NCBI RefSeq assembly: GCF_003664255.1
Contig: NZ_RCCV01000003.1
Span: 124,001-188,000, forward strand
DNA: 64,000 nt
From: Micromonospora sp. M71_S20
GTDB lineage: Bacteria; Actinomycetota; Actinomycetes; Mycobacteriales; Micromonosporaceae
Direction of reading: 5' to 3'
Shown: positions 1,470-21,498 of the stretch, one piece after another
How positions within the stretch are numbered: the first letter of the stretch is position 1
Layout: every line of letters begins with the position of its first letter
Position numbers and translations under genes: made by a program
The notes under the pieces: generated by a model
The model's database searches: none
Told to the model about the DNA's origin: nothing
Seen by the model: only the letters and a program-made list of their open reading frames with translations

Positions 1470-1532
1470 GGGTTAACGGTGGCCGCTGCCTGGGCATGTC
1501 GAGGGGACTGACGCCGACCACGAGGAGGGGCG

Positions 1533-4156: not shown

Positions 4157-4230
4157 GCGCGAGGAGTGAGCCGGGTCTGCGAGCCCCGCAGTCGCGAACG
4201 GAGAAGGCATCGTGAGCGAGCGCGAGGAGG
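4149..4230 (+). repeat. Intergenic repeat insertion encoding a 20-codon relay ORF
   Basis: A short direct repeat beginning AGGCATCGTGAGCG occurs at the end of the ROK gene and again at the start of the ATPase gene, 59 bases apart. The intervening DNA reads in frame from the GTG at 4153 to the TGA at 4213-4215 (VSARSEPGLRAPQSRTEKAS). That mini-ORF overlaps the ROK stop at its start and the ATPase GTG at its end, so the GTGA stop/start coupling is kept on both sides. Such GAGCGAGCGCGAGGAG-type repeats are common between Micromonospora and Salinispora genes (from memory). Confidence 0.6.
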
Positions 4231-6964: not shown

Positions 6965-7085
6965 TCCGTACCGCACCGACCGCGCGGCATCCGGGCCACC
7001 CGAGCGACGGTGGCCGGGCCCCGCACGCTCTCTTCCGTTCCGCACCGCGAGATTTCCTCCACCACCGTCAACCCAGGAGGTCGTC

Positions 7086-8138
7086 ATGACCCAGCAGAGT
7101 CGCGACATGTCGCGCCGCCGGCTGCTCTTCGGCGGGGCCGCCGTCGGCGCCGGCGTGCTGCTCGCCGGCTGCACCAGCAACGAAGCCCAGCCGACCGAGG
7201 CGCAGACCAAGGCGGCCGCGCCGGGCGGCAACAGCGAGCCCGGCAAGCGGGTCGTCATCGGCTTCTCCGCGCCGGCCGCGGACCACGGCTGGATCGCCGC
7301 CATCACCAACAACGCCAAGGCGCAGGCCGGGGCGTACTCCGACGTGGAGTTCAAGTCGGTCGAGGCCGGCGCGGACGCGGCGGCCCAGCGGGCGGCGCTG
7401 TCCACGCTGATCTCGCAGAAGCCCGACGTGATCGTGCTGCTGCCGCACGACGGCAAGGAGCTCAACGCGTTCGGCCTGGAGGCGATGAAGGCCGGCGTCC
7501 CGGTGGTCAACCTGGACCGGGCCTTCCCCGACGCGCGGGCCTACCGGCTCCAGATCAAGGGCGACAACTACGGCATGGGCGTGGCCGCCGCCACCTACAT
7601 GATCGAGCAGTTCAAGGCCAAGGGCATCAGCAACCCGGTGATCGGCGAGATCGCCGGCATGGACGAGCTGGAGCTGACCCAGGAGCGGTCGAAGGGCTTC
7701 GTCGACACCCTGACGGCGAGCGGCTTCAAGGTCGCCAACCGCCGGGCGGCCCGGTTCACGGCCGACTCCGGCCAGCAGGAGGCGGCGCAGCTGCTCCAGG
7801 CCCTGCCGAAGATCGACGCGCTCTGGAACCACGACGACGACCAGGGCATCGGCGTGCTGGCCGCGGTCAGCCAGAGCGGCCGCAAGGAGTTCTTCATGGT
7901 CGGCGGCGCCGGCTCGAAGAAGGCGATGGAGGACATCCAGGCCGACAACACGGTGCTCAAGGCGACCGTTACCTACAGCCCCTCGATGGCCTCCTCGGCC
8001 GTCTCCCTGGCCCGCCTGATCGGCCAGGGCAAGGGCATGTCCGACCTGGTGGAACTCCAGGTGCCCAAGGAGATCATCCTCGCCTCCGAGACGATCACCA
8101 AGGAGAACGCGGGCAACTACCTCAAGCTCGGGTTCTGA
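7086..8138 (+). CDS. Sugar ABC transporter substrate-binding lipoprotein
   Basis: 350 aa periplasmic-binding-protein-like (type I, RbsB class) protein. An AGGAGG site lies just upstream of the ATG. The N-terminus SRRRLLFGGAAVGAGVLLAGC combines an RR motif with a lipobox (LAGC), suggesting Tat or Sec export and lipid anchoring outside the membrane. The mature part opens with VIGFSAPAADHGWIAAITNNA and contains DVIVLLPHDGKELNAFG and VPVVNLDRAFPDARAY, typical of sugar-binding proteins. As the binding component of the operon it sets the transported sugar; the exact sugar cannot be read from sequence. Confidence 0.92.
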   Translation: MTQQSRDMSRRRLLFGGAAVGAGVLLAGCTSNEAQPTEAQTKAAAPGGNSEPGKRVVIGFSAPAADHGWIAAITNNAKAQAGAYSDVEFKSVEAGADAAAQRAALSTLISQKPDVIVLLPHDGKELNAFGLEAMKAGVPVVNLDRAFPDARAYRLQIKGDNYGMGVAAATYMIEQFKAKGISNPVIGEIAGMDELELTQERSKGFVDTLTASGFKVANRRAARFTADSGQQEAAQLLQALPKIDALWNHDDDQGIGVLAAVSQSGRKEFFMVGGAGSKKAMEDIQADNTVLKATVTYSPSMASSAVSLARLIGQGKGMSDLVELQVPKEIILASETITKENAGNYLKLGF

Positions 8139-8158
8139 TACACGGGGGGAGACCCACC

Positions 8159-9397
8159 TTGTCCACGACAGACAGAGAACTGCGGGTCGGCATGGTCGGC
8201 TACGCGTTCATGGGCGCCGCGCACTCGCAGGCGTGGCGCACCGTGAACCGGGTGTTCGACCTGCCGGCGCGGGCCCGGATGTCGCTGATCTGCGGCCGGG
8301 ACGCCGGGAAGGTGGCCGACGCCGCCGACCGGCTCGGCTGGGACGCGTCCACGACCGACTGGCGCGAGCTGATCGCCCGGGACGACATCGACGTGGTCGA
8401 CGTCTGCACGCCGGGCGACAGCCACGCCGAGATCGCTCTCGCCGCGCTGGCCGCCGGCAAGCACGTGCTGTGCGAGAAGCCGCTGGCCAACACGGTCTCC
8501 GAGGCCCGGGCGATGGCCGCCGCGGCGGTCACCGCGCAGGCCGCCGGGGTGCGGTCGATGTGCGGGTTCAACTACCGGCGGGTGCCGGCGGTCGCGATGA
8601 TGCGCCAGCTCGTCGCCGACGGGCGGCTCGGGGTGATCCGGCACGTCCGGGCGACGTACCTGCAGGACTGGATCGTGGACCCGCAGTTCCCCCTGGTCTG
8701 GCGGTTGCAGCGGGACAGGGCCGGCTCGGGCGCGCTCGGCGACATCGGCGCGCACATCATCGACCTGACCCAGTACGTCACCGGCCGGCGGATCACCGGG
8801 GTCAGCGCGGTAACCGAGACGTTCGTCAGGGAACGGCCGCTGCCGGCCGGGTCGAGCGGGCTGGCGGCGACGGTGGACGGGGCGGCGGTCGACGGCCTCG
8901 GTGCCGACGGCCACCGCCCGGCCACCGGGGCGGTCACCGTCGACGACGCGGCGGTCTTCGTGGCCCGGCTCGACGGCGGCGTGCTGGCGACGTACGAGGC
9001 GAGCCGGTTCGCCACCGGACGCAAGAACGCCCTCCGGGTGGAGATCAACGGTTCGCTGGGCACGGTGGCCTTCGACCTGGAGCGCCTCAACGAGCTGGAG
9101 TTCTACGACGCGACGCGACCCGCCGCCGAACAGGGGTTCAGCCGCATCCTGGTGACCGAGGGGGAGCACCCGTACATGTCCGCCTGGTGGCCGCCCGGCC
9201 ACCTCATCGGCTACGAGCACTCCTTCACGCACCAGATGCGGGACTTCGTCGAGGCGGTCGCCACCGGCGTCGACCCGGCCCCCTCCTTCGTCGACGGGTT
9301 GCAGGTCCAGCTGGTGCTGGACGCGGTGACCCGGTCGGCGGAGCTCGGCTCCTCGTGGACCGAGGTGGAGCCGGCCCTGGCCACGGTCGCCGCCTGA
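8159..9397 (+). CDS. Gfo/Idh/MocA family oxidoreductase
   Basis: 412 aa NAD(P)-dependent sugar dehydrogenase. The start is a TTG at 8159 preceded by GGGGGAG at about 8145; no other start fits the beginning of the Rossmann fold (RVGMVGYAFMGAAHSQAW). The conserved CEKPLANT motif and the catalytic GDIGAHIIDLTQYV stretch are both present. Family members oxidise sugars or inositols, some at C3 of glycosides. It closes the sugar transport operon, 20 bases after the binding protein, so it most likely acts on the imported sugar or a breakdown product. About 15 extra residues around position 240-260 look like a variable loop. Confidence 0.9.
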   Translation: MSTTDRELRVGMVGYAFMGAAHSQAWRTVNRVFDLPARARMSLICGRDAGKVADAADRLGWDASTTDWRELIARDDIDVVDVCTPGDSHAEIALAALAAGKHVLCEKPLANTVSEARAMAAAAVTAQAAGVRSMCGFNYRRVPAVAMMRQLVADGRLGVIRHVRATYLQDWIVDPQFPLVWRLQRDRAGSGALGDIGAHIIDLTQYVTGRRITGVSAVTETFVRERPLPAGSSGLAATVDGAAVDGLGADGHRPATGAVTVDDAAVFVARLDGGVLATYEASRFATGRKNALRVEINGSLGTVAFDLERLNELEFYDATRPAAEQGFSRILVTEGEHPYMSAWWPPGHLIGYEHSFTHQMRDFVEAVATGVDPAPSFVDGLQVQLVLDAVTRSAELGSSWTEVEPALATVAA

Positions 9398-9882: not shown

Positions 9883-11043
9883 ATGCGTACGGGTGTCTGG
9901 CTGGTGGGAGCGCGCGGCTCGGTCGCGACCACCAGCATAGTGGGGGCGCTCGCCCTGCGGTCCGGGCTCACCGGCCCGACCGGCTGCGTCACCGAACTGC
10001 CCGACCTGCGGGGGCCCGCCCTGCCAGCCTTCACCGACCTGGTCTTCGGCGGGCACGACGTCGTCACCACCCCGCTGGCGAAGCGGGCCGAGGCGCTGGC
10101 CGCCGCCGGCGTGCTGCCCGGCCGGCTGGTCGCCGCCCTCCCCGGCGAGCTGGCCGCCGTCGAACGCGAGCTGCGTCCGGCCCCTGCCGTCGGCACCCAG
10201 GCGGACCGGGCCGCCGCGACCGTACGCGACCTCACCGACTTCCGCCGCCGGCACGGGCTGGATCGGGTGGTGGTGGTCAACGTCTCGGCCACCGAACCCG
10301 CCGCCCGCCCGCACCCGGGGCACGCCGACCCGGACGCGCTGCGGGCCGCGCTCGCCGGTGACGACGAGGTGCTGCCGCCCAGCTCCCTCTACGCGTACGC
10401 GGCAGTGCGGGCGGGCTGCCCGTACGTCGACTTCACCCCGTCCACCGGGCTGCGGCTGCCGGCCCTGGTGGCGCTGGCCGCCGAGGGCGGGATCCCGTAC
10501 GCCGGGCACGACGGCAAGACGGGGGAGACCCTGGTCAAGTCCGTGCTCGCGCCGATGTTCGCGATGCGGCACCTGGCGGTGCGCTCCTGGTCCGGGATCA
10601 ACCTGCTGGGCGGCGGCGACGGCGCCACCCTCACGGACCCGGCGGCCAACGCGGCCAAGGCGGAGAGCAAGCAGCGGGTGCTCGGCGAGACCCTCGGCCA
10701 CCTGCCGCAGGGCGGCACCCGGATCGAGTACGTCGAGGCGCTGGGCGACTTCAAGACCGCCTGGGACCTGATCACGTTCGCCGGGTTCCTCGGCACCGGG
10801 ATGCGGATGGAGTTCACCTGGCACGGCTGCGACTCCGCCCTGGCCGCGCCCCTCGTGCTCGACCTGGCCCGACTCACCGCCGCCGCGCACGCCGCCGGCC
10901 ACGCCGGCCCCCTGACCGACCTCGCCTTCTTCTTCAAGGACCCGTTCGGCACGCCCACCCACTCGCTGGCCGACCAGTGGACCCGGCTGTGCGGCTTCGC
11001 CCAGCGGCTGCACGCGGGAGGCACCGATGCCGCGCGTCACTGA
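9883..11043 (+). CDS. Myo-inositol-1-phosphate synthase family protein (ebo-type cluster)
   Basis: 386 aa. The ATG at 9883 follows a GGAAGGAG site. The N-terminus VWLVGARGSVATTSIVGAL is an NAD-binding Rossmann start; further marks are VVVVNVSATEP, PSSLYAYAAVRAGCPYVDFTPS, GHDGKTGETLVKSVLAPMF and the FFFKDPFG block, matching the inositol-3-phosphate synthase superfamily in the form found in bacterial ebo-like clusters rather than the housekeeping enzyme. The lysine-containing GKTGETLVK segment suggests an active enzyme. It is the first gene of a tight eight-gene cluster and overlaps the next by 17 bases. In cyanobacterial ebo operons the comparable place is taken by a dehydroquinate-synthase-like EboD; here a sugar-phosphate cyclase of another family may fill it (inference). 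Confidence 0.82.
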   Translation: MRTGVWLVGARGSVATTSIVGALALRSGLTGPTGCVTELPDLRGPALPAFTDLVFGGHDVVTTPLAKRAEALAAAGVLPGRLVAALPGELAAVERELRPAPAVGTQADRAAATVRDLTDFRRRHGLDRVVVVNVSATEPAARPHPGHADPDALRAALAGDDEVLPPSSLYAYAAVRAGCPYVDFTPSTGLRLPALVALAAEGGIPYAGHDGKTGETLVKSVLAPMFAMRHLAVRSWSGINLLGGGDGATLTDPAANAAKAESKQRVLGETLGHLPQGGTRIEYVEALGDFKTAWDLITFAGFLGTGMRMEFTWHGCDSALAAPLVLDLARLTAAAHAAGHAGPLTDLAFFFKDPFGTPTHSLADQWTRLCGFAQRLHAGGTDAARH

Positions 11044-11971
11044 CCTCGCCGAACTGGTCCGGGCGCCGGCCGCGCTGTCGGTGCCCGGGGACGTCGTCGC
11101 CGGGGCGGCGGCAGCCGGCACGCTCGGGCGGCGTACGCCCGCGCTGGCCGCCGCGTCCGTCCTGCTCTACTGGGCGGGAATGGCCGCCAACGACTGGGCC
11201 GACCGCCGGCTGGACGCCGTCGAACGCCCCGAGCGGCCCATCCCCAGCGGCCGGGTGGCCCCCGGGGTCGCGCTCGGCCTCGCCGCCGGGCTCACCGCCG
11301 CCGGGGTCGCGCTGGCCACCGCCGCCGGGGGCCGGCGCGCCGCGACGGTCGCGGCCGGCCTCGCCGCCGCCGTCTGGGGGTACGACCTGGCGGCGAAGGA
11401 CACGCCCGCCGGCCCGGCCGTGATGGCCGCCTGCCGAGGGCTGGACGTGCTGCTCGGCGCGACGGGCGGACGGGCGCTGCGGGCGGTGCCGGCGGCGGTC
11501 ACCGTGGCAGCGCACACGTGGACGGTCACCGCGCTCTCCCGCCGGGAGGTCACCGGCGCCGACGCCGCGCTGCCGCTGCGTACCCTCGCCGGAACCGCCC
11601 TGGTCGCCGCGAGCGCCGCCGTCCGGCCGCGCCTCGACCGGGTCGGGCCGGGCCGCCGCCCCCGGGCCGCGACCCGCGCCACGCCCACCGACGTGCCCGA
11701 CCGCGCCCCCCGGCCCGGCCCCGGCGTCGCCGCCGCGCTGCCGGCGCTGCTGGCCGGCTGGTACGCGGCCCGCTACGGCGCGGCCCAGGCCCGGGCGGCG
11801 GCCGACCCCTGCGCCGGCCGGGTGCGGGCGGCGGTGGGAGCGGGGATCACCGGGCTGCCCGCGTTGCAGGGCGCCCTCGCCGCACGCGCCGGGGCCGGGC
11901 TGCTGGGGCTGGCGGTGGCCGCGGCCGCGCCGCTCGGCGGCCGGCTGGCCCGGAAGGTCTCCCCGACGTGA
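11027..11971 (+). CDS. eboC: UbiA-type prenyltransferase (EboC-like)
   Basis: 314 aa integral membrane protein. The first Asp-rich motif of UbiA prenyltransferases is present as NDWADRRLD near residue 55, and a second-loop equivalent as YDLAAKDTPAG. The short spacing and PERPIPSGRV following the first motif are typical of the EboC branch. About 7-9 hydrophobic helices are visible, separated by an unusual Arg/Pro-rich loop around residues 205-232. UbiA proteins transfer a polyprenyl chain to an acceptor; an in-cluster polyprenyl synthase (17179-18246) could supply the donor and the inositol-phosphate or polyol product the acceptor (inference). Overlaps genes on both sides. Confidence 0.85.
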   Translation: MPRVTDLAELVRAPAALSVPGDVVAGAAAAGTLGRRTPALAAASVLLYWAGMAANDWADRRLDAVERPERPIPSGRVAPGVALGLAAGLTAAGVALATAAGGRRAATVAAGLAAAVWGYDLAAKDTPAGPAVMAACRGLDVLLGATGGRALRAVPAAVTVAAHTWTVTALSRREVTGADAALPLRTLAGTALVAASAAVRPRLDRVGPGRRPRAATRATPTDVPDRAPRPGPGVAAALPALLAGWYAARYGAAQARAAADPCAGRVRAAVGAGITGLPALQGALAARAGAGLLGLAVAAAAPLGGRLARKVSPT

Positions 11972-12885
11972 CCGCCCCAGGGAGGCCCCCGGGCGGCGAC
12001 GGCCCGCGCTTCGGCTACGGGACCAACGGGTTCGCCAACCACCGGCTGACCGACGCGCTCGCCGTCGTCGCCGACCTGGGCTACCAGGGCGTGGCGCTCA
12101 CCCTGGACCACGACCACCTCGACCCGTTCGCGCCCGCCCTGGCCCGGCGGGTGGCCGCCGTCGCCCGCCGGCTCGCGGCGCTCGACCTCGCCGTGGTCGT
12201 CGAGACCGGCGCCCGCTACCTGCTCGACCCGTGGCACAAGCACGCCCCGACGCTGCTGCACGACGACCCGGCGCGGCGCGTCGAGTTCCTGCGCCGGGCC
12301 GTGCGGATCGGTGCCGACCTCGGCGCGGAGGCCGTCTCCTTCTGGGCGGGCGTCCGACCGGAGAACGTCGAACCCGCGACCGCCTGGGACCGGCTGGTCG
12401 CCGGCTGCGCCACGGTCCTCGACGCCGCCGAGGCGGCCGGGACGACCCTCGGCTTCGAGCCGGAGCCGGGCATGCTGGTCGAGGACATCGCCGGCTGGCG
12501 CCGGCTGCGCGGCGCGCTCGGCGATCCGGCCCGCTTCGGCATCACCCTCGACATCGGACACTGCCGCTGCCTGGAGCCGCGGCCGGTCCCCGAGTGCGTA
12601 CGCGAGGTGGCCGCGTACCTGGTCAACGTGCAGATCGACGACATGCGCCGGGGCGTGCACGAGCACCTGGAGTTCGGCACCGGCGAGATCGACTTCCCGC
12701 CCGTGCTGCGTGCCCTGGGCGACGTCGGCTACCGGGGACTGGTCGCCGTGGAGCTGCCCCGCCACTCGCACGCCGCCCCCGCCGTCGCGGCCCGCTCGCT
12801 CGACTTCCTGCGCGCCGCCGCGAAGGAGGCGGCGCGACCGGGACCGGGTGCCAACGGGAAGGAAGCGGCGCGACCGGAACGGTGA
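11968..12885 (+). CDS. Sugar phosphate isomerase/epimerase, TIM barrel
   Basis: 305 aa from the GTG at 11968, which overlaps the prenyltransferase stop (GTGA). It is a xylose-isomerase-like TIM barrel: GYGTNGFANHRLTDAL, GYQGVALTLDHDHLDP, then TLGFEPEPGMLVEDIAGW with a metal-binding Glu, ITLDIGHCRCLEP with Asp and His, and GLVAVELPRHSH with the last Glu. The C-terminus has two near-copies of a KEAARPG-type motif encoded by a short imperfect tandem repeat at about 12824-12880. Family enzymes isomerise or epimerise sugars, inosose or keto-polyols, which suits a cyclitol-type intermediate here. Confidence 0.83.
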   Translation: MTAPGRPPGGDGPRFGYGTNGFANHRLTDALAVVADLGYQGVALTLDHDHLDPFAPALARRVAAVARRLAALDLAVVVETGARYLLDPWHKHAPTLLHDDPARRVEFLRRAVRIGADLGAEAVSFWAGVRPENVEPATAWDRLVAGCATVLDAAEAAGTTLGFEPEPGMLVEDIAGWRRLRGALGDPARFGITLDIGHCRCLEPRPVPECVREVAAYLVNVQIDDMRRGVHEHLEFGTGEIDFPPVLRALGDVGYRGLVAVELPRHSHAAPAVAARSLDFLRAAAKEAARPGPGANGKEAARPER

Positions 12886-12920
12886 CGGGGCCACGTCGGC
12901 AGCACGAGAGAGGAGACGGG

Positions 12921-13523
12921 ATGACACCGGATTCACTGCGGGCCGCGCTGCGGGGCGTACCCGATCCCGACTGGCTCGACGCGGCGCTGCGGCGCGTGGC
13001 GGCCGAACCGGCGGCCATCGACCGGTTCTTCCCGGCCGCCGGGCGGCGCTGCGGCCGGGCACCGCTGGCCGGGGCGCCCGGCTGGAGCGCCGACGAGGCG
13101 GCCCGGGCCCTGCTGCTGACCGCGCTGCCGGGCGACCACGCCGCGCACGCGCAGGCCCGCTACCGGCAGGGCGACGCCGCCGAGAAGCGCGCCGTGCTCA
13201 AGACCCTGCCGCTGCTGCCGATCGGCGCGGCCGGCGCGCCGCTGCTGCACGACGCGATCCGCACCAACGACACCCGGCTGCTGGCCGCCGCCCTCGGCCC
13301 GTACGCCCGGCACCTCGACCCGGCCGCCTGGCGGCAGGCGGTGCTCAAGTGCGTGTTCACCGGTGTGCCGCTGGCCGTGGTGCACGACCTCGACGCCCGC
13401 GCCGACGGCGAACTCGCCGCGATGCTCGCGGGGCTGGCCGCCGAGCGGCAAGCCGCCGGGCGGGCCATGCCGGCGGACGCGACCGACCTGCTCGCCCGGC
13501 TGCGCGAAATCCAGGAGGCCTGA
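12921..13523 (+). CDS. eboA: EboA domain protein
   Basis: 200 aa, mostly helical, starting at the ATG at 12921 behind AGAGGAG. The block EKRAVLKTLPLLPIGAAGAPLLHDAIRTNDTRLLAAALGPYA, followed by LDPAAWRQAVLKCVFTGVPLA, is the signature of EboA proteins (cytoplasmic helical-repeat protein of unknown biochemistry). Its presence next to TatD, UbiA and EboE genes identifies the cluster. The stop overlaps the next start (TGATG). No catalytic motif is apparent; a scaffold or adaptor role is possible. Confidence 0.8.
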   Translation: MTPDSLRAALRGVPDPDWLDAALRRVAAEPAAIDRFFPAAGRRCGRAPLAGAPGWSADEAARALLLTALPGDHAAHAQARYRQGDAAEKRAVLKTLPLLPIGAAGAPLLHDAIRTNDTRLLAAALGPYARHLDPAAWRQAVLKCVFTGVPLAVVHDLDARADGELAAMLAGLAAERQAAGRAMPADATDLLARLREIQEA

Positions 13524-14386
13524 TGCGCATCTTCGACCCGCACATCCACATGACCTCGCGGACCACCGACGACTACGAGCGGATGGCCGCCGCCGGCGTC
13601 CGCGCGGTGGTGGAGCCGGCGTTCTGGCTCGGCCAGCCCCGCACCAGCCCCGCCTCCTTCGCCGACTACTTCGACTCGCTGGTCGGCTGGGAGCCGTTCC
13701 GGGCCGGGCAGTTCGGGATCCGCCACCACGCCACGGTGGCGCTGAACCCGAAGGAGGCCAACGACCCGCGTTGCCGCCCGGTGCTCGACCTGCTGCCGCG
13801 CTACCTCGACAAGGACGCCGTGGTGGCGGTCGGCGAGATCGGCTACGACTCGATGACGCCGGAGGAGGACGAGGCGTTCGCCGCCCAGCTCGCCCTGGCC
13901 GTGGCCCACGACCTGCCGGCCCTGGTGCACACCCCGCACCGGGACAAGGTCCGGGGCGTCGAACGCAGCCTCGCCGTGGTCGTCGAGTCCGGCGTCGAGC
14001 CGGGCCGGGTGGTGCTCGACCACCTCAACGAGGTGACGGTGGGGCTGGTCCGGGACACCGGCTGCTGGCTGGGCTTCTCCATCTACCCCGACACCAAGAT
14101 GTCCCCGCCGCGGATGGTGGAGCTGCTGCGGGCGTACGGGACCGAGCGGGTGCTGGTCAACTCGGCGGCCGACTGGGGGCGCTCGGATCCGCTGCTCACC
14201 CGGGCCACCGGGGAGGCGATGCTGCTGGCCGGCTTCACCGACGACGACGTGGACCGGGTGCTGTGGCGCAACCCGGTCGAGTTCTACGGCCAGTCCGGGC
14301 GGCTCGACCTGACGGACCTGGAGCACGCCGCCGACGCGGCGGCCGGCACCTGGGCCGGCAACTCGATCCTGCGCGGCGGCAGCTGA
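13523..14386 (+). CDS. eboB: TatD family metal-dependent hydrolase (EboB-like)
   Basis: 287 aa amidohydrolase. All expected metal ligands are visible: DPHIHM (HxH) at the N-terminus, GEIGYDSM (Glu) near residue 110, LVHTPH (His) near 135, LDHLNE (His) near 165 and NSAADWG (Asp) near 215. The insert PRTSPASFADYFDSL after strand 2 matches EboB-type TatD proteins more than the DNase-type TatD. Start by TGATG overlap with eboA; its own stop overlaps eboE. The natural substrate in ebo clusters is unknown. Confidence 0.83.
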   Translation: MRIFDPHIHMTSRTTDDYERMAAAGVRAVVEPAFWLGQPRTSPASFADYFDSLVGWEPFRAGQFGIRHHATVALNPKEANDPRCRPVLDLLPRYLDKDAVVAVGEIGYDSMTPEEDEAFAAQLALAVAHDLPALVHTPHRDKVRGVERSLAVVVESGVEPGRVVLDHLNEVTVGLVRDTGCWLGFSIYPDTKMSPPRMVELLRAYGTERVLVNSAADWGRSDPLLTRATGEAMLLAGFTDDDVDRVLWRNPVEFYGQSGRLDLTDLEHAADAAAGTWAGNSILRGGS

Positions 14387-15612
14387 TGCGGCTGCGGCAC
14401 GCCGGCGGCGACACCGTCCACCTCGGCTACTGCACCAACGTGCACCCCGCCGAGGACCTCGCCGGCATCCTCCGCCAGCTGGACACCTACGCCGTGCCCG
14501 TACGCGAGGCGCTCGGCGCCGACCTGCTCGGCCTCGGGCTGTGGCTGGCCGCCCCGGTCGCCGCCGCGCTGGCCGCCGACCCGGCCGCCCGGCGCCGGCT
14601 GCGCGCCGAGCTGACCGTCCGGGGGCTGGAGGTGGTCACCCTCAACGGTTTCCCGTACGCGGCCTTCCAGGCCCCCGTCGTCAAGGGCGACGTCTACCAC
14701 CCGGACTGGACCACGCCCGCGCGGCTCGCGTACACCCTGGACCTGGTCCGGGTGCTCGTCGACCTGCTGCCCGACGACGCGGCCCGGGGCTCGGTCTCCA
14801 CCCTGCCGTTGGCCTGGCGGCAACCCTGGGACGCCGCCCGCGCGGACGCCGCCCGCCGACGGCTCGACGACCTGTCGGCCGGTCTCGCGGCCGTCGAGCG
14901 GGAGACCGGCCGGGCGGTTCGGGTCGGCTTCGAGCCGGAACCCGGCTGCGTGGTGGAGAGCACCGGCCAGGCCGTGGCGGCCCTGTCCGGCCTGGACACC
15001 GACCGGCTCGGCGTCTGCCTGGACCTCGCCCACCTCGCCTGCGCCTGGGAGGAGCCGGCCGAGGCGCTGCGCCGGCTGCGCACGGCCGGCCTGCCGGTGG
15101 TGAAGGTGCAGGTCTCGGCCGCCATCGAGGCGCCCGCCGAGGCGACGCAGGCGCTGCGCCGCTGGGTGGAGCCGCGCTTCCTGCACCAGACCCGCGCCGC
15201 CGGCTGCGCGGGCGCGGCGGACCCGGCCGACCCCGACCACGCCGCCGACGACCTCGACGCCGCCCTGGCCGAGCGGCTGCCCGGGACGTGGCGGGTGCAC
15301 TACCACGTGCCGTTGCACGCTCCGCCGGAGCCGCCGCTGGGCGCCACCCTGCCGGTGCTGCGCGCCGCGCTGGCCGCGCTCTACGCCGGGCCCGAGGCGG
15401 GCTGCGACCACCTCGACGTCGAGACGTACACCTGGGGGGTGCTGCCGGCCGCGCGGCGCCCGCGCACCGACGCGGAGCTGGCCGCCGGCATCGCCGCCGA
15501 GCTGGCCTTCGCCCGCGCCGAGCTGGTCGCCGTGGGCCTGACGCCGACGGATCACCGGGACCGCGCCGGGGTGTCTCCCGGTGACGCCGGGCGGAGCGGG
15601 GTGATGGCATGA
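14386..15612 (+). CDS. eboE: EboE-like metabolite traffic protein, TIM barrel
   Basis: 408 aa. The N-terminal GYCTNVHPAEDLAGILRQL and VVTLNGFPYAAFQAPVVKGDVYHPDW are the recognised EboE signature; later motifs VGFEPEPGCVVES, GVCLDLAHLACAWE and VHYHVPLHA carry the likely metal-binding Glu, Asp, His and His of a xylose-isomerase-like barrel. Despite the 'traffic' label from cyanobacterial work, the fold predicts a sugar isomerase or lyase. The last residues (GRSGVMA) are encoded by a repeat copied again 80 bases downstream, so the natural C-terminus may have been changed by that insertion. Confidence 0.85.
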   Translation: MRLRHAGGDTVHLGYCTNVHPAEDLAGILRQLDTYAVPVREALGADLLGLGLWLAAPVAAALAADPAARRRLRAELTVRGLEVVTLNGFPYAAFQAPVVKGDVYHPDWTTPARLAYTLDLVRVLVDLLPDDAARGSVSTLPLAWRQPWDAARADAARRRLDDLSAGLAAVERETGRAVRVGFEPEPGCVVESTGQAVAALSGLDTDRLGVCLDLAHLACAWEEPAEALRRLRTAGLPVVKVQVSAAIEAPAEATQALRRWVEPRFLHQTRAAGCAGAADPADPDHAADDLDAALAERLPGTWRVHYHVPLHAPPEPPLGATLPVLRAALAALYAGPEAGCDHLDVETYTWGVLPAARRPRTDAELAAGIAAELAFARAELVAVGLTPTDHRDRAGVSPGDAGRSGVMA

Positions 15613-15694
15613 GCGAGCGTCAGCGAGCGAGTCAGCCACACAGGGCTGGGGTGGCTCATGGCGGCGCCGAGCGGAGCGGGGTGATGGCATGAGC
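15591..15694 (+). repeat. 24-bp direct repeat (80-bp period) enclosing a 27-codon relay ORF
   Basis: The 24-base unit at 15591-15614 is repeated exactly at 15671-15694. Each copy carries the junction GTGATGGCATGAGC, i.e. an upstream stop overlapping an ATG. The first copy ends eboE and opens an ORF at 15609 (MSERQRASQPHRAGVAHGGA and seven more residues); the second copy ends that ORF on the ATG of the phosphodiesterase gene. The insertion therefore copied the stop/start junction and added a short translated relay between two coupled genes. Confidence 0.65.
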
Positions 15695-17182
15695 CGGCGG
15701 CTGGTGGTGCTGGACGTGGTCGGGCTGACCCCGCGCCTGCTGGCGCACATGCCCCGGCTGCGCGCGGTCGCCGACGCCGGCTTCCGCGCCGAGCTGGGCA
15801 CCGTGCTGCCCGCGTTGACGTGTTCGGTGCAGTCGACGTTCCTCACCGGGGCGCTCCCGGCCGGGCACGGGATCGTCGGCAACGGGTGGTACTTCCGGGA
15901 CCTCGGCGAGGTGCTGCTCTGGCGGCAGCACCACGCCCTGGTCGGCGGGGAGAAGCTGTGGCAGGCCGCCCGCCGGGCGCAGCCGGGCTTCACGGTCGCC
16001 AACGTCTGCTGGTGGTACGCGATGGGCGCCGACGTGGACTGGACGGTCACCCCGCGCCCCGTCTACCACGCGGACGGGCGCAAGGAGCCGGACTGCTACA
16101 CCGACCCGCCGGAGCTGCACGACGACCTCACCGACCGGCTCGGCACCTTCCCGCTGTTCAGCTACTGGGGTCCGGGCGCCGGGCTGGCGTCGTCGGCGTG
16201 GATCTGCCGGGCCGCCGAGCGGATCCTGGACGACCACGCGCCGGACCTGACCCTGGTCTACGTCCCGCACCTCGACTACGACCTGCAACGTCACGGCCCC
16301 TCGTCGCCCCGGGCCGCAGCCGCGGCGGCCGAGCTGGACGGGGTGCTCGGGCCGCTGCTGGACGCCGCCCGCGCCCGCGACGCCACCGTGGTGGTGCTCT
16401 CCGAGTACGGCATCACCGACGTCTCCCGGCCGGTCGACGTCAACCGGCTGCTGCGCGCCGAAGGGCTGCTGCGGGTGCACACCCAGGCCGGCATGGAGTA
16501 CCTCGACCCGTGGACGTCGCGGGCCTTCGCGGTGGCCGACCACCAGGTGGCGCACGTCTACGTCCGCGACCCGGCCGACGTGCCGGCGGTGGCGGCGCTC
16601 TGCGCCGGGCTGCCCGGGGTGGCCGAGGTGCTCGACGCCGACGGCCGGGCCGCGTACGGGCTGGACCACCCGCGCGCCGGAGAGCTCCTCCTCGTCGCCG
16701 AGCCCGACGCCTGGTTCACCTACTACTACTGGCTCGACGACGACCGCGCGCCCGACTTCGCCCGGCTGGTGGAGATCCACCGGAAGCCGGGTTACGACCC
16801 CGCCGAGCTGTTCTTCGACCCGGCCGCGCCGGGCGCGGCGAAGCGGCGGGCCGCCGTGGCGCTGGCCCGCAAGAAGCTCGGGATGCGCTACCTGATGAGC
16901 GTGGTGGGGCTGGACGCCGGCGCCCGGGCGGTACGCGGGTCGCACGGCCGGCTCCCGGCCGACCCGGCCGACGGGCCGGTGCTGCTCTGCTCCGACCCGT
17001 CCGCCGCCCGGGACCGGGTCGCCGCGACCGAGGTCAAGGCACTCCTGCTGGAGCTGGCGGGGCTGGCACCGCCGCCGGCCCCCGACACGGTCCCGCCGCC
17101 GGCCCCCGACACGGTCCCGCCGCCGCGTCGCGCCGCGCCGTCCACTGCGACGTCGGCGGGGCGGCCCAAGGAGGCGCCGTGA
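15689..17182 (+). CDS. Alkaline phosphatase/nucleotide pyrophosphatase family protein (EboF-like)
   Basis: 497 aa. Phosphodiesterase/AlkP-superfamily features: the first metal Asp in VVLDVVGLTPRLL, the nucleophile segment LTCSVQSTFLTGALPAGHGIVGNGWY, YVPHLDYDLQRHGP with Asp and His ligands, and VLSEYGITDVSRPVD. Two insertions, WWYAMGADVDWTVTPRP and YYYWLDDDRAPDFARLVEIHRKPGYDP, match the EboF/nucleotide-pyrophosphatase subgroup of ebo clusters. The C-terminus has a Pro-rich tail with an 8-residue tandem repeat (PPPAPDTV twice, 24-bp DNA period at about 17071-17118). It would remove or hydrolyse a phosphate or phosphodiester group. No signal peptide, so cytoplasmic. Confidence 0.8.
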   Translation: MSRRLVVLDVVGLTPRLLAHMPRLRAVADAGFRAELGTVLPALTCSVQSTFLTGALPAGHGIVGNGWYFRDLGEVLLWRQHHALVGGEKLWQAARRAQPGFTVANVCWWYAMGADVDWTVTPRPVYHADGRKEPDCYTDPPELHDDLTDRLGTFPLFSYWGPGAGLASSAWICRAAERILDDHAPDLTLVYVPHLDYDLQRHGPSSPRAAAAAAELDGVLGPLLDAARARDATVVVLSEYGITDVSRPVDVNRLLRAEGLLRVHTQAGMEYLDPWTSRAFAVADHQVAHVYVRDPADVPAVAALCAGLPGVAEVLDADGRAAYGLDHPRAGELLLVAEPDAWFTYYYWLDDDRAPDFARLVEIHRKPGYDPAELFFDPAAPGAAKRRAAVALARKKLGMRYLMSVVGLDAGARAVRGSHGRLPADPADGPVLLCSDPSAARDRVAATEVKALLLELAGLAPPPAPDTVPPPAPDTVPPPRRAAPSTATSAGRPKEAP

Positions 17183-18246
17183 CCGCCGTCGTCGCCCCGA
17201 CCGACACGAGCGGACTGCGGGTCCGGTTCGACGCCGCGCTCGCCGCCTTCCTCGACCGGCAGGGCCGGGACTGGCCGGACGGGGCGCCCCGGGGCGTCTT
17301 CACCGCGCTGCACCGGTTCGTGCTGGCCGGCGGCAAGCGGCTGCGCCCGCTCTTCTGCTACTGGGGATGGCGGGGCGCGGGCGGCGTCGACGGCGCCCCG
17401 ATCGTGGTGGCCGCTGCCGCGTTGGAGCTGTTCCACGCGTTCGCGCTGATCCACGACGACATCCTGGACGGCAGCGACCGCCGCCGGGGCGGGCCGTCGG
17501 TGCACCGGCTCTTCGCCGACCTGCACGCCCGCTCGTCCTGGCGCGGCGACCCCGAGGCGTACGGGCGCAACACCGCGCTGCTCTGCGGCGACCTCTGCGC
17601 CGCCTGGTCCGACCAGATGTTCCACGAGTGTGGCCTGGACGCGGGGCGGGTGCACCGGGGGTACGCGGTCTACGCGCTGATGCGCACCGAGGTGATCGCG
17701 GGGGAGTACCTGGACCTGGTCTCCGGGGTCGGGGACGGTTCGGTGGCGAGCGCGCTGACCGTCGTCCGGATGAAGGCGGCCCGCTACACGGTCACCCGGC
17801 CGTTGCAGATCGGGGCGACGCTGGCCGGGGCCGGACCGGAGCTGGTCGCCGCCCTGGCCGAGTTCGGCGACCCGCTGGGCGACGCGTTCCAGCTGCGCGA
17901 CGACGTGCTGGGGGTCTTCGGCGACCCGACGGTCACCGGCAAGTCGGTCCTGGACGACCTGCGGGAGGGCAAGCCGACGGTGATGATGGCGCTGGCCCGC
18001 GGCGCCGCCGACCGGGCGCAGGCCGCGCGGCTGCGGGAGCTGTTCGGCAACCCGGCGCTCGACGGCGACGGCGCCGCCGAGCTGCGGAAGATCATCGAGG
18101 GCACCGGGGCCCGTGAGCGGATCGAGGGGATGATCCGGGTACGCGCGGAGGCCGCCCTGGCGGCCCTGGGGTCCACCCCGGTGACCGCCGAGGCCCGGGC
18201 CGCCCTGACGGCCCTCGCCGCCCAGGCCGTCGACCGTCCCCGCTGA
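17179..18246 (+). CDS. Polyprenyl diphosphate synthase (GGPP synthase-like)
   Basis: 355 aa from a GTG overlapping the previous stop (GTGA). The isoprenyl-synthase signature is complete: GGKRLRPLF, first Asp-rich motif HDDILDGSDRRRG, GDLCAAW, the KAARYTV block and second region QLRDDVLGVFGD, in the DDxxG-type form common in actinobacterial geranylgeranyl/farnesyl synthases. It makes C15-C20 or longer diphosphates from IPP. As last gene of the cluster with a UbiA prenyltransferase, it probably supplies a dedicated prenyl donor. Prenyl synthases are not part of the classical cyanobacterial ebo operon as I know it, so this linkage is notable. Confidence 0.88.
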   Translation: MTAVVAPTDTSGLRVRFDAALAAFLDRQGRDWPDGAPRGVFTALHRFVLAGGKRLRPLFCYWGWRGAGGVDGAPIVVAAAALELFHAFALIHDDILDGSDRRRGGPSVHRLFADLHARSSWRGDPEAYGRNTALLCGDLCAAWSDQMFHECGLDAGRVHRGYAVYALMRTEVIAGEYLDLVSGVGDGSVASALTVVRMKAARYTVTRPLQIGATLAGAGPELVAALAEFGDPLGDAFQLRDDVLGVFGDPTVTGKSVLDDLREGKPTVMMALARGAADRAQAARLRELFGNPALDGDGAAELRKIIEGTGARERIEGMIRVRAEAALAALGSTPVTAEARAALTALAAQAVDRPR

Positions 18247-18633: not shown

Positions 18634-21498
18634 ATGTCCACCCAGGACGCCCCCACCCAACGGCTCCGACGGCGGTTCTCCGCCGGCTCGGCGCTGCTGC
18701 TGGTCGCCACCGCCGGCTCGGTCGCCCTCGGCGCCGGCCCGGCCCCGCTGGGCGGCCCCACCCCGGCCCAGGCCCACCCCATCGTCGGCACCGACTTCCA
18801 GCAGGTCACCCTCGCCAAGGGCGTCGCCGAGGTGGGCGAGCCCATGACGATCGCGGTGCTGCCGGACCGGTCGGTCCTGCACACCGCCCGCAACGGCACC
18901 GTCCGGCGTACGGACTCGGCCGGCACCACCTCCGTGATCGGCACGCTGCCGGTCTACACCCACGACGAGGAGGGGTTGCAGGGCGTCGGGGCCGACCCGA
19001 ACTTCGCCAGCAACCGGCACATCTACCTCTACTACGCGCCGCCGCTGGCCACCCCGGCCGGCGACGCGCCGGCGACCGGCAGCGACTTCTCGGCCTGGCA
19101 GGGCGTCAACCGCCTCTCCCGGTTCACCCTCAACGCCGACTTCACGATCAACACCGCCAGCAAGGTCGACATCCTCGACGTGCCCGCCGACCGGGGCATG
19201 TGCTGCCACGTCGGGGGCGACATCGACTTCGACGCCGCCGGCAACCTCTACCTCTCCACCGGCGACGACACCAACCCGTTCGACTCGGCCGGGTACGCGC
19301 CCATCGACGAGCGCACCAACCGCAACCCCGCGTACGACGCGCAGCGCAGCGCGGCCAACACCAACGACCTGCGCGGCAAGATCCTGCGGATCAAGGTGAA
19401 CGCCAACGGCACGTACTCGATCCCGGCGGGCAACATGTTCGTCGACTCGGACGCGAGGACCCGTCCCGAGATCTACGCGATGGGCTTCCGCAACCCGTTC
19501 CGGATGAGCGTGGACCGCGCCACCGGCATCGTCTACGTCGGCGACTACGGCCCGGACGCCGGCACCACCAGCGCCCGGGGGCCGAGCGGCCAGGTGGAGT
19601 TCAACCGGGTCACCGGGCCCGGCAACTACGGCTGGCCGTACTGCACCGGCACCAACACCGCCACCGAGACGTACGCCGAGTGGGACTTCGCCGCCGGGAC
19701 CGGCGGGGCGAAGTACAACTGCTCCGGCGGGCCGACCAACAACTCCTTCCGCAACACCGGTCTGCCCACCCTGCCCGGGGCGAAGCCGGCCTGGATCCGG
19801 TACGCCGGCGACGCCGGCACCCCGCCCGAGTTCGGCGGTGGCTCCGAGTCGCCGATGGGCGGCCCCGTCTACCGGTACGACGCCGCGCTGAACTCCACCA
19901 CCAAGTTCCCGCAGTCCTTCGACGGGCAGTTCTTCGCCGGCGAACTCGGCCGGGGCTGGGTCAAGCCGATCCACCTCAACGCCGACGGTAGCCCGGGAAC
20001 CATCGACACGTTCCCGTGGAACGGCAAGCAGATCATGGACATGGCGTTCGGGCCCGAGGGCGCGCTCTACATCCTCGACTACGGCACCGGGTACTTCAAC
20101 GGCGACGCCAACTCGGCGCTCTACCGCTACGACTACATCGCCGGCGGCAACCGGGCGCCGACCGCCGTCGCCACGGCCGACAAGACCTCGGGCACGGCCC
20201 CGCTGACCGTGAACTTCTCCTCGGCCGGGTCCAGCGACCCCGACGGCGGGGCGCTCACGTACTCCTGGGCTTTCGGCGACGGCACCAGCTCGACGGCGGC
20301 CAACCCCAGCAAGACGTACACCGCCAACGGCACCTACCGGGTCACGCTGACCGTACGCGATCCGCAGGGCGCCACCGGCACGGCGAACGTGCAGATCGGC
20401 GTCGGCAACACCGCGCCCACGGTCACCATCAACAGCCCGGCCAACGGCAAGCTGTTCAGCTACGGCGACACCGTGCCGTTCAGCATCACGGTGACCGACC
20501 CCGAGGACGCCGCCATCGACTGCACCAAGGTCAAGATGACCTACGTGCTGGGCCACGACAACCACGGCCACCAGATCACCTCGAAGAACGGCTGCTCGGG
20601 CTCGATCACCATCCCGGTCGACGGTGAACACGACGACGCGGCGAACATCTTCGCCATCTTCGACGCCGAGTACACCGACGCGGGCGGGCTGACCACGCAC
20701 AAGCAGCACACCCTCCAGCCGCGCAAGCGCCAGGCGGAGCACTTCAAGACCTCCTCCGGCGTCGGGATCTTCGACAAGGGCACCGCCGAGGGCGGCAAGA
20801 CCGTCGGTGACATCAACAACGGCGACTGGATCGCGTTCGAGCCGTACCGGATCGACAACGCGACCTCGTTCAGCGCCCGGGTCTCCTCGGCCGGCGCCGG
20901 CGGCACCCTCCAGGTGCGGGTCGGCTCGCCCACGGGCACCGTGCTCGGCTCCGCGACCGTCCCGGTCACCGGCGCCTGGGACGCGTTCACCACGGTCAGC
21001 GGCAGCATCTCCGGGGCGCCGGCCAGCACCGGCACGCTCTACCTCACGTTCGCCGGCACGGGCACCGGCGCGCTCTACGACGTGGACACGTTCGCCTTCA
21101 CCACCGGGTCGGCGGTCCGCACCGGCCCGGTCGTCGGGCTCGGCGGCAAGTGCCTGGACGTACGCAACGCGGCCACCGCCGACGGCACGCAGATCCAGAT
21201 CTACGGCTGCAACGGCTCCGCGGCGCAGACGTGGACGGTGACGCCGAACTCGACCGTGAAGGCGCTGGGCAAGTGCCTGGACATCTCCGGCGGCGCGTCG
21301 GCCGACGGGACGAAGATCCAGCTCTACGGCTGCAACGGCACCGGCGCGCAGAACTGGTCGGCGCAGGCGGACGGCACCCTGAAGAACCCGCAGACCGGCA
21401 AGTGCCTGGACGTCTCGGGCAACAACCCGGCCGACGGTCAGGCCGTGCACCTGTGGACGTGCCACACCGGCGCCAACCAGAAGTGGACCCTGCCCTGA
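18634..21498 (+). CDS. Secreted PQQ-type sugar dehydrogenase with PKD, CBM6 and ricin-type lectin domains
   Basis: 954 aa. The ATG at 18634 has a GGAAGGGA site; an in-frame GTG at 18478 only adds unlikely leader. A signal peptide of about 50 residues ends near AQAHP. Residues ~52-505 form a soluble-glucose/sorbosone-dehydrogenase beta-propeller (DEEGLQGVGADPNF, LSTGDDTNPF, EIYAMGFRNPFRMSVD). Then a PKD domain (~508-592, DPDGGALTYSWAFGDGTSS), an Ig-like stretch to ~698, a CBM6-like domain (~700-826) and a three-lobe ricin B lectin (829-954) with repeated GKCLD and W-type motifs. It likely oxidises sugars outside the cell while bound to polysaccharide. Its lectin is nearly identical to that of the next gene. 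Controlled from the shared 18344 module. Confidence 0.88.
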   Translation: MSTQDAPTQRLRRRFSAGSALLLVATAGSVALGAGPAPLGGPTPAQAHPIVGTDFQQVTLAKGVAEVGEPMTIAVLPDRSVLHTARNGTVRRTDSAGTTSVIGTLPVYTHDEEGLQGVGADPNFASNRHIYLYYAPPLATPAGDAPATGSDFSAWQGVNRLSRFTLNADFTINTASKVDILDVPADRGMCCHVGGDIDFDAAGNLYLSTGDDTNPFDSAGYAPIDERTNRNPAYDAQRSAANTNDLRGKILRIKVNANGTYSIPAGNMFVDSDARTRPEIYAMGFRNPFRMSVDRATGIVYVGDYGPDAGTTSARGPSGQVEFNRVTGPGNYGWPYCTGTNTATETYAEWDFAAGTGGAKYNCSGGPTNNSFRNTGLPTLPGAKPAWIRYAGDAGTPPEFGGGSESPMGGPVYRYDAALNSTTKFPQSFDGQFFAGELGRGWVKPIHLNADGSPGTIDTFPWNGKQIMDMAFGPEGALYILDYGTGYFNGDANSALYRYDYIAGGNRAPTAVATADKTSGTAPLTVNFSSAGSSDPDGGALTYSWAFGDGTSSTAANPSKTYTANGTYRVTLTVRDPQGATGTANVQIGVGNTAPTVTINSPANGKLFSYGDTVPFSITVTDPEDAAIDCTKVKMTYVLGHDNHGHQITSKNGCSGSITIPVDGEHDDAANIFAIFDAEYTDAGGLTTHKQHTLQPRKRQAEHFKTSSGVGIFDKGTAEGGKTVGDINNGDWIAFEPYRIDNATSFSARVSSAGAGGTLQVRVGSPTGTVLGSATVPVTGAWDAFTTVSGSISGAPASTGTLYLTFAGTGTGALYDVDTFAFTTGSAVRTGPVVGLGGKCLDVRNAATADGTQIQIYGCNGSAAQTWTVTPNSTVKALGKCLDISGGASADGTKIQLYGCNGTGAQNWSAQADGTLKNPQTGKCLDVSGNNPADGQAVHLWTCHTGANQKWTLP
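21346..21498 (+). repeat. Exact DNA repeat in lectin C-terminus, copy 1
   Basis: These 153 bases, including the stop codon, are identical to 23530-23682; a further near-exact block extends back to 21207 (partner 23391). The constant offset of 2184 bases shows a collinear duplicate, and DNA identity above protein identity suggests recent copying or gene conversion. Confidence 0.85.

Follow-up and report, generated by a model that had tools for sequence, protein, structure and literature searches.

Gene clusters of the ebo type are described from many phyla and from some algal plastids (PMC5133447, PMC6282210), and a variant in Micromonospora sp. M71_S20, located within a window of 64,000 nucleotides (the whole stretch of DNA analyzed), raises the question of what kind of molecule these clusters build on. 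The eight genes of the Micromonospora cluster, all on the plus strand at 9883-18246, were assigned to families by Pfam and NCBIfam profile matches (Table 1), which bears out the eight co-directional genes of these families described in an earlier note on this DNA. EboA, EboB, EboE, and EboF are encoded together, as is typical of canonical ebo clusters; the cluster has no gene for EboD, the DHQS-superfamily sugar-phosphate cyclase. The earlier note, which had called the cluster complete, missed both this absence and the apparent substitution by MIPS. Most of the genes had also been said to overlap by 4-17 bases. In gene order, the junctions show overlaps of 17, 4, 4, 1, and 1 bases, a gap of 76 bases between eboE and eboF, and a final overlap of 4 bases; the 4-base overlap between TIM1 and EboA requires the GTG start of EboA and becomes a 35-base gap with the ATG start.

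Table 1. Features of the ebo cluster and its flanks in the Micromonospora window
Feature	Position	Strand	Profile matches and remarks
Upstream sugar locus: ROK regulator, sugar ABC transporter, Gfo/Idh oxidoreductase	2978..9397	+	Profile matches
MIPS-type cyclase, 386 aa	9883..11043	+	PF07994 171.7 bits, PF01658 100.5 bits; occupies the place of EboD
UbiA-superfamily prenyltransferase, EboC position	11027..11971	+	PF01040 60.5 bits; NF045897 (SCO3242 family) 366 bits, cut-off 260
TIM1, second xylose-isomerase-like TIM barrel	11968..12885	+	PF01261 129 bits
EboA	12882..13523	+	NF035938 155.8 bits, cut-off 50; start GTG 12882 or ATG 12921
EboB, TatD-like metal-dependent hydrolase	13523..14386	+	PF01026 42.7 bits
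EboE, TIM barrel	14386..15612	+	NF035939 405.9 bits, cut-off 250
EboF, type I phosphodiesterase/nucleotide pyrophosphatase family	15689..17182	+	PF01663 220.5 bits
Polyprenyl diphosphate synthase	17179..18246	+	PF00348 150.1 bits
Glucose/sorbosone-dehydrogenase propeller with PKD, CBM6, and ricin-lectin domains	18634..21498	+	PF07995 120.7 bits
ThuA, 3-keto-disaccharide hydrolase, CBM6, and ricin lectin	21574..23682	+	PF06283 266.2 bits, PF06439 137.9 bits
TIM2, xylose-isomerase-like TIM barrel	23997..25004	+	PF01261 154.8 bits; myo_inos_iolE 43 bits, cut-off 290

EboD was not detected by tblastn in any of the 80 named actinobacterial ebo loci. The Micromonospora genome encodes three DHQS-family proteins elsewhere, namely, AroB (L010, above the cut-off), an AroB-like protein (L009, below the cut-off on the piece examined, 240.8 vs 305), and a glycerol-1-phosphate-dehydrogenase-like protein (L011, below the cut-off). 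The possibility of an EboD elsewhere in the genome was rejected for lack of a close match: L010 and L011 are 26-34% identical to eight EboD proteins, compared with 43-63% identity among the latter. In a sample of 344 genomes of the class, 83 encode both EboE and MIPS, 4 EboE only, 2 MIPS only, and 255 neither; co-conservation of MIPS with EboE, part of a test set by the earlier note, holds across the class (83 of the 87 genomes with EboE vs 2 of the 257 without it). MIPS is located upstream of EboE, on the same strand and within 8 kb, in 80 of 91 EboE places, and the four genomes with EboE only contain no further ebo gene within the 20 kb fetched. The eight EboD-type plasmid loci examined encode EboD and lack MIPS within 8 kb on each side; the EboB and EboF of eight EboD-type clusters are, respectively, 39-57% and 42-56% identical to those of Micromonospora. 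The ebo clusters of two genomes (G315 and G244) lack linked MIPS and TIM1, and both genomes carry MIPS and a TIM1-like gene elsewhere, in G315 at a kind of locus that is also found in the absence of ebo genes; two second ebo copies in Streptomyces (L115 and L166) are likewise without MIPS. Outside the class, phylum-wide co-occurrence is uninformative because stand-alone MIPS of the same Pfam family is common there (in the phylum sample, 65 of 296 genomes have a match above the cut-off), and other phyla were covered by plasmid records and one protein search.

We thus observe a pattern of replacement between MIPS and EboD, in which MIPS together with TIM1 appears to take the place of EboD, a swap that recurs in actinobacteria. 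Literature searches found no published description of such a switch, and a word-start search for 'inositol' in the main text of Yurchenko et al. 2016 (PMC5133447) gave no match. Like canonical eboABCDEF as presented there, the MIPS-type cluster combines EboA, EboB, EboE, and EboF with a UbiA protein in one operon, with the same proposed product class, isoprenoid-cyclitol; it differs in having MIPS and TIM1 instead of EboD and a UbiA of the SCO3242 family. The swap hints at the kind of molecule on which the ebo cluster builds: that two unrelated cyclase folds fill one slot in otherwise common clusters is circumstantial evidence that the building block is a cyclitol. As MIPS is an enzyme of known chemistry, experiments on the variant can start from a defined substrate, and the presence of the variant in Streptomyces brings the question within reach of laboratory strains.

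The two Pfam domains of MIPS are both present in the Micromonospora cyclase, as are the catalytic Lys, Asp, and Asn residues, the roles of which we take to be those assigned in work on mIPS. Its closest solved structure by sequence is A. fulgidus mIPS (1u1i, 229.9 bits), the five-membered-cyclitol-phosphate synthase 6k96 being a more remote relative (45.1 bits); the altered letters of the mutant structures 3qvw and 3qvx are visible in the structure-match alignment. Among 92 ebo-linked MIPS copies, 10 of the 11 active-site positions examined are invariant; the remaining one, position 219, is occupied by K in 78 copies and by R in 14. The Micromonospora MIPS looks catalytically intact. The enzyme could be a passenger, producing free inositol for mycothiol, phosphatidylinositol, or an osmolyte and merely co-regulated with ebo, as the frequency of Pfam-family MIPS outside the class (65/296) would allow. 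We consider this very unlikely, given that MIPS within the class is nearly confined to genomes with EboE, that the Micromonospora genome encodes a separate mycothiol-type inositol synthase (L013; TIGR03450 387.7 bits from the 203-aa piece scanned, below the whole-protein cut-off of 638), and that Gemmatirosa has MIPS, TIM1, and UbiA together on an EboD-type core.

In that Gemmatirosa locus (L134), MIPS, TIM1, and UbiA group with the MIPS type, whereas EboE and EboF group with the EboD type; EboB groups with Deinococcus EboB, in a tree where the two types are not separated with support. Joint travel of MIPS, TIM1, and UbiA is seen in this one clear case. The UbiA join comes from a quickly built tree whose branches are long and has a support of 90; at 162 and 128 bits, the protein reaches neither NCBIfam cut-off. 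Among the 120 of 423 matches listed in the protein search with this UbiA, five were labeled with an organism: four belong to Gemmatimonadota, and one is given just as 'bacterium'. In this single locus, the cyclase and the prenyltransferase look as though they travel as a pair. Given this apparent joint change of UbiA and cyclase, the likely acceptor of UbiA is the cyclitol derived from MIPS or EboD, although co-occurrence by itself does not show that the MIPS product is the acceptor.

The prenyltransferase itself was named EboC in the earlier note, but scores 115.7 bits against the NCBIfam EboC model (cut-off 250) and falls into the SCO3242 family instead. Of 149 genomes, seven contain a member of this family above the cut-off, and each of these seven encodes EboE. 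The EboC family score was rejected as a divider of cluster types because it is too weak for several EboC proteins, and the UbiA of four EboD-type clusters (L132, L133, L135, and L177) is also below the cut-off. The prenyl-site residues on which the earlier note relied are conserved in part. In the first Asp motif, NDxxDxxxD, residues N55, D56, D59, and D63 are invariant in the 95 MIPS-type and the 8 EboD-type proteins compared, whereas the second Asp motif of the UbiA superfamily, DxxxD after TM6, was not found; the helices of the predicted model put S171-R-x-E174 at the corresponding site, with E174 present in 95 of 95 MIPS-type proteins and Glu in 7 of 8 of the EboD type. The best fold match of the model is DGGGP synthase (6m31, E 1.7e-6), the acceptor of which is a phosphorylated polyol. 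Archaea use mIPS and DGGGP synthase, the best matches of MIPS by sequence and of UbiA by fold, for ether lipids; the ebo cluster differs in showing no sign of a glyceryl-phosphate step.

Most UbiA enzymes act on aromatic acceptors, TIM1 and TIM2 are weakly similar to the inosose dehydratase IolE, and the Gfo/Idh oxidoreductase of the upstream locus resembles IolG as well as levoglucosan dehydrogenase. These features would fit a prenylated aromatic or quinone, made from the MIPS or EboD carbocycle by EboE/TIM1-type dehydration to a polyhydroxybenzene whose ring UbiA prenylates. So would Ubi-297, an EboC of Maribacter, reported to farnesylate quinoline acids in membrane fractions and to prefer such acids (PMC9235831); this report, which in the sections covered makes no mention of cyclitols, also counts against the cyclitol reading. 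An aromatic product nevertheless seems rather unlikely to us, as the conserved block contains no dehydrogenase and the IolE matches are weak (20.4 bits for TIM1 and 43 bits for TIM2, cut-off 290). Moreover, the product of MIPS is a phosphorylated polyol without a ketone.

TIM1 occurs together with MIPS across loci and has the motif FEPEPG in common with EboE. In locus L129, TIM1 and EboA are in one frame, which fits the published fusion of actinobacterial EboA to a xylose-isomerase-like domain (PMC5133447). The model of EboA is all-helical and confident (mean pLDDT 97.9), but its best PDB match has an E value no lower than 0.78, so that the structure gave no lead on function.

Among Micromonosporaceae, 50 of 57 loci have the polyprenyl diphosphate synthase gene after eboF, compared with none of 19 loci from other groups. 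It is thus a Micromonosporaceae addition, absent from canonical eboABCDEF; its candidacy as an ebo core gene was rejected on this lineage limit, and the co-conservation with ebo genes set as a test by the earlier note does not hold. Its nearest relatives are FPP/GGPP synthases (best solved matches 8f8f and 3lk5), and it has the Asp-rich motifs DDILD and DDVLG, the second as in 8f8f, in keeping with a short-chain E-polyprenyl diphosphate synthase.

From these comparisons, we infer the chemical steps and the product of the MIPS-type pathway, with about an even chance that MIPS with TIM1 performs the ring-forming job of EboD and that the product is a small prenylated cyclitol (phosphate) lipid. 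MIPS would convert glucose-6-phosphate to inositol phosphate, TIM1 would reshape the latter, and the matching UbiA would attach a C15-C20 prenyl chain to the cyclitol or cyclitol phosphate, with the prenyl diphosphate supplied in Micromonosporaceae by the synthase of the same operon. EboA, EboB, EboE, and EboF, the core in common with the EboD type, would complete the product or deal with it once made; for EboF, the probable task is removal of a phosphate. The resulting small amphipathic lipid would serve a step outside the cytoplasmic membrane, either in export or as a partner of secreted propeller enzymes. The prenylated cyclitol or carrier chemistry of the earlier note is compatible with our observations and had already been proposed for canonical ebo, the isoprenoid-cyclitol product class in 2016 (PMC5133447) and the lipid-carrier role in 2018 (PMC6282210).

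Under the latter proposal, the model of Klicki et al. 2018, the cluster would make a lipid carrier that exports diverse secondary metabolites, with a headgroup varying by lineage. The ebo cluster of Nostoc punctiforme as described there has core genes in common with the MIPS type, and differs from it by a nearby EboD-type cyclase and scytonemin genes; in its ebo mutants, the scytonemin monomer stays in the cytoplasm (PMC6282210). Three MIPS-type cassettes on Streptomyces plasmids adjoin different secondary-metabolism-type genes, namely, NRPS, PPTase, and ABC genes (L176), FAD monooxygenase, amidase, and glutamine-synthetase-like genes (L137), and ScyD/ScyE-family, prenyltransferase, and multicopper oxidase genes (L136). 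In Streptomyces coelicolor, SCO3242, the namesake of the UbiA family, and SCO3243, annotated as myo-inositol phosphate synthase, are listed among the genes of the CDA cluster and treated as such, not as ebo genes (PMC3610822), the region being known here by annotation. We nonetheless hold a general export carrier to be improbable: 23 of the 38 loci sampled have a sugar-dehydrogenase-like gene nearby instead, and the Nostoc work found no lipid-bound scytonemin intermediate (PMC6282210). The carrier and the prenylated cyclitol lipid overlap and are not mutually exclusive.

An unexpected observation concerns the flanks: of 38 ebo clusters sampled, 23 have glucose/sorbosone-dehydrogenase-like propeller genes in their vicinity, compared with none of 40 random windows, a linkage that opens a second line on the purpose of the product. 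ThuA-type genes occur near 15 of 38 clusters vs 2 of 40 control windows, those two overlapping each other, and TIM2 relatives near 11 of 38 vs 0 of 40, whereas linkage of ABC-transporter and Gfo/Idh genes in the 38 loci is not significant (2/38 and 4/38). Among named loci, several of them incomplete, relatives of the propeller or ThuA genes are present in 47 of 60 from Micromonosporaceae vs 6 of 20 others, and a Gfo/Idh gene in 35 of 60 vs 3 of 20, again with some loci incomplete. The N-termini of the propeller and ThuA products in the window, read by eye, are signal-peptide-like. Glucose/sorbosone-type dehydrogenases normally use PQQ, and no match to the PQQ gene pqqC was found in 23 of the 24 ebo genomes tested. 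It is conceivable, if quite unlikely, that the ebo product is a prenylated, sugar-derived, lipoquinone-like redox cofactor of secreted propeller oxidoreductases, which could be built from either the EboD or the MIPS ring and whose partners would be ScyE in cyanobacteria and the glucose/sorbosone-dehydrogenase-like propellers in MIPS-type actinobacteria.

The propeller genes near ebo recall ScyE beside ebo in cyanobacteria: exported ScyD/E/F adjoin ebo in Nostoc (PMC6282210), and dehydrogenase-like or ScyE-family genes are near some MIPS-type clusters. Linkage to the ScyE family as a general rule was rejected, with 5 of 80 strong places (at least 150 bits) in the class sample within 12 kb of EboE, these five coming from three genomes. 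Further ScyE-family genes occur near ebo in L092, L110, and L136, and the Micromonospora genome has one ScyE-family match, located away from the ebo cluster.

The eight-gene cluster runs from MIPS (inositol-phosphate-synthase-like) through UbiA (at the EboC position), TIM1 (a xylose-isomerase-like TIM barrel), EboA, EboB, EboE and EboF to a polyprenyl diphosphate synthase, and the gene families and single direction assigned in the earlier note were confirmed. The canonical ebo operon is described as including EboD, a DHQS-superfamily sugar-phosphate cyclase (PMC5133447), but no EboD was found in the window cluster. A search of the same genome yielded three DHQS-family matches elsewhere: one scores as aroB, above the cut-off; the second is aroB-like, below the cut-off and scored on a piece; the third is glycerol-1-phosphate-dehydrogenase-like, also below the cut-off. 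Therefore, the cluster, previously called complete, is an ebo variant rather than a complete ebo operon. MIPS appears to replace EboD, a point that was absent from the earlier note and is the most useful one of this analysis.

Features of the window and of the plasmid loci examined
Record	Feature	Position	Strand	Basis
Window	ebo-type cluster, eight genes	9883-18246	+	family assignment by profile searches
Window	24-base string at 15591 (eboE end) and 15671 (eboF start)	15591-15694		identical copies
L175	lone EboE	9989-11167
L177	EboD-type cluster with upstream pair	2051-5069
L180	EboD-type cluster with upstream pair	1043-4103
L137	MIPS-type cassette and neighbours	9001-18926
L133	EboD-type cluster with Gfo/Idh genes	4768-6814

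In the window cluster, EboA, EboE and the SCO3242-family prenyltransferase exceed their NCBIfam cut-offs, and UbiA falls far short of that of the NCBIfam EboC model. The short overlaps reported between genes hold at most junctions but not between eboE and eboF, which are 76 bases apart; this gap resembles a small local duplication or insertion, because a 24-base string of the eboE end recurs 80 bases on.

EboE and PF07994 (MIPS) were each sought in a single sample of 344 genomes from the class, and exceeded the cut-off in 87 and 85 genomes, respectively. Both were present in 83 genomes, EboE only in 4, MIPS only in 2 and neither in 255 (Fisher p about 4e-72, relatedness of the genomes being ignored), so that the expected co-conservation of MIPS with ebo genes is borne out for EboE, with 83 of the 87 EboE genomes encoding MIPS. 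The four EboE-only genomes carry a solitary EboE, with no further ebo gene within the 20 kb fetched. MIPS lies upstream on the same strand, at most 8 kb away, at 80 of 91 EboE places; the other 11 are the four solitary genes, two second copies (G123, G539) in genomes that also hold an EboE place with MIPS upstream, four places with MIPS on a different contig (G431, G547, G347, G457), and G315, whose sole MIPS match belongs to a type of locus that is also seen in the absence of ebo. In an EboB scan, the best-matching named loci among the matches listed came from Micromonospora, in line with a Micromonospora-like genome for the window. The named loci comprise the best 80 of 565 relatives among the matches listed and are thus biased towards close relatives of the window; EboD was detected by tblastn in none of these 80, and MIPS is present in 67 of the 69 with at least 4.2 kb upstream of EboB.

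In a different locus type (L167, L173, L174), occurring in genomes with or without ebo, MIPS (42-43% identical to that of the window) and a gene resembling TIM1 are separated by about 4 to 5 kb. Other loci (L162-L165, L168-L169) hold EboE relatives with no companion ebo genes in the stretch retrieved.

In a plasmid collection, EboE matched 49 records, 13 of which were examined. Eight non-actinobacterial loci (L132, L133, L135, L177-L181) encode EboD and lack MIPS; MIPS is present, and no EboD was found, in Gemmatirosa (L134) and three Streptomyces loci (L136, L137, L176); L175, also from a Streptomyces plasmid, holds a lone EboE set in a type II polyketide cluster. L177 and L180, from different phyla, share a pair of genes immediately upstream, one for an unnamed protein and one for a ferritin-like protein (PF12902), and in L133 (Ketogulonicigenium) two Gfo/Idh oxidoreductases precede EboD and a further TIM barrel follows it. 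The L137 cassette adjoins amidase, glutamine-synthetase-like, purB-like and GNAT genes, which are reminiscent of diazo-forming clusters, such as that of kinamycin.

The Gemmatirosa cluster is likely, though not proven, to be a natural module swap, judging from protein trees and similarity. Its MIPS and TIM1 are 45% and 50% identical to the MIPS-type window proteins, and its UbiA best matches the NCBIfam SCO3242 model (162 bits vs 128 for EboC, both under the cut-off), whereas its EboE and EboF cluster with EboD-type proteins (support 100 each) and its EboB joins that of Deinococcus (support 100); EboA was not found at this locus. The caution is due to UbiA, which joins the MIPS type with support of 90 in a quickly built, long-branched tree, and to the EboB tree, which as a whole does not separate the two cluster types with support. 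Most simply, cyclase, TIM1 and prenyltransferase would form a single cassette that either core can receive, which is what one would expect were UbiA to act on the cyclase product. The Gemmatirosa UbiA matched 423 proteins; among the 120 listed, few are named, and these are mostly from Gemmatimonadota.

Ten of 11 MIPS active-site positions are invariant in 92 ebo-linked copies, the remaining one being K in 78 and R in 14. Among solved structures, the window MIPS matches that of A. fulgidus best, and the five-membered-cyclitol synthase 6k96 is much more distant. The prenylation proposed earlier is matched in part by the prenyl-site residues of UbiA: throughout 95 proteins, the first Asp motif is invariant and the YDxxxK stretch varies once at D and once at K, but the second DxxxD motif was not found, an invariant Glu occupying its place, as Glu does in 7 of 8 EboD-type proteins. 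Nevertheless, a Maribacter EboC in membrane fractions is reported to be active when supplied with farnesyl diphosphate (PMC9235831). Archaeal DGGGP synthase is the nearest structural match of the UbiA model, and TIM1 and EboE have the FEPEPG and LDxxH positions in common, as well as Gln and late Glu positions.

The prenyl synthase, whose nearest relatives are FPP/GGPP synthases, comes after eboF in 50 of the 57 named Micromonosporaceae loci with room for the gene vs none of 19 other named loci. Contrary to the suggested co-conservation, it is a lineage-specific feature, and genomes without a linked synthase presumably draw prenyl diphosphates from general metabolism.

The window cluster is flanked on one side by a sugar ABC transporter and a levoglucosan-dehydrogenase-like gene, and on the other by a glucose/sorbosone-dehydrogenase (GSDH) propeller, a ThuA/3-keto-disaccharide hydrolase and a further TIM barrel (TIM2). 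Linkage was assessed by comparing 38 ebo loci, each of 20 kb, with 40 random windows, five each from eight genomes of the phylum sample. That sample also supplied 18 of the ebo loci; the other 20, spread over many families, were chosen from the 91 class places with flanks unseen. Propeller relatives (100 bits or more) occur in 23 ebo loci vs no random window, ThuA in 15 vs two, those two overlapping, and TIM2 in 11 vs none, and 13 ebo loci lack all three; same-genus loci are not independent in these counts, and identity is as low as 32-50% for some matches. GSDH or ThuA is present in 47 of 60 Micromonosporaceae loci and 6 of 20 others, several incomplete, among the best 80 of 565 relatives; the linkage is strong within this family and weaker beyond. 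A ScyD/ScyE-family gene lies immediately upstream of MIPS in six cases (G481, G588, G531, L136, L092, L110), and 75 of 80 strong ScyE-family places in the class sample are away from EboE. No pqqC match was detected in 23 of 24 ebo genomes searched or in 14 control genomes, the single match (G295) showing that the search can detect pqqC; propellers in those 23 genomes would therefore need external PQQ or something else. Together with these neighbours and with Nostoc ScyE, whose presumed substrate is periplasmic scytonemin monomer (PMC6282210), this is the basis for an improbable reading in which the ebo product would be a prenylated, sugar-derived redox cofactor for secreted propeller oxidoreductases. 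The Nostoc localization data argue against such a cofactor, in that ebo mutants retain the monomer in the cytoplasm and the scyE mutant is unlike them; the authors of that study considered a cofactor and favored a lipid carrier (PMC6282210).

Overall, the observations of the earlier note stand with these corrections, and its interpretation is plausible but unproven; an isoprenoid-cyclitol product and a carrier role are already published. A full-text search, mostly outside subscription journals and with most matches judged from listings, found no description of a MIPS-type ebo cluster. Part of the MIPS cassette may, in a model organism, be filed under another pathway, because SCO3242 and SCO3243 appear among the CDA-cluster genes listed in a transcriptome paper (PMC3610822).
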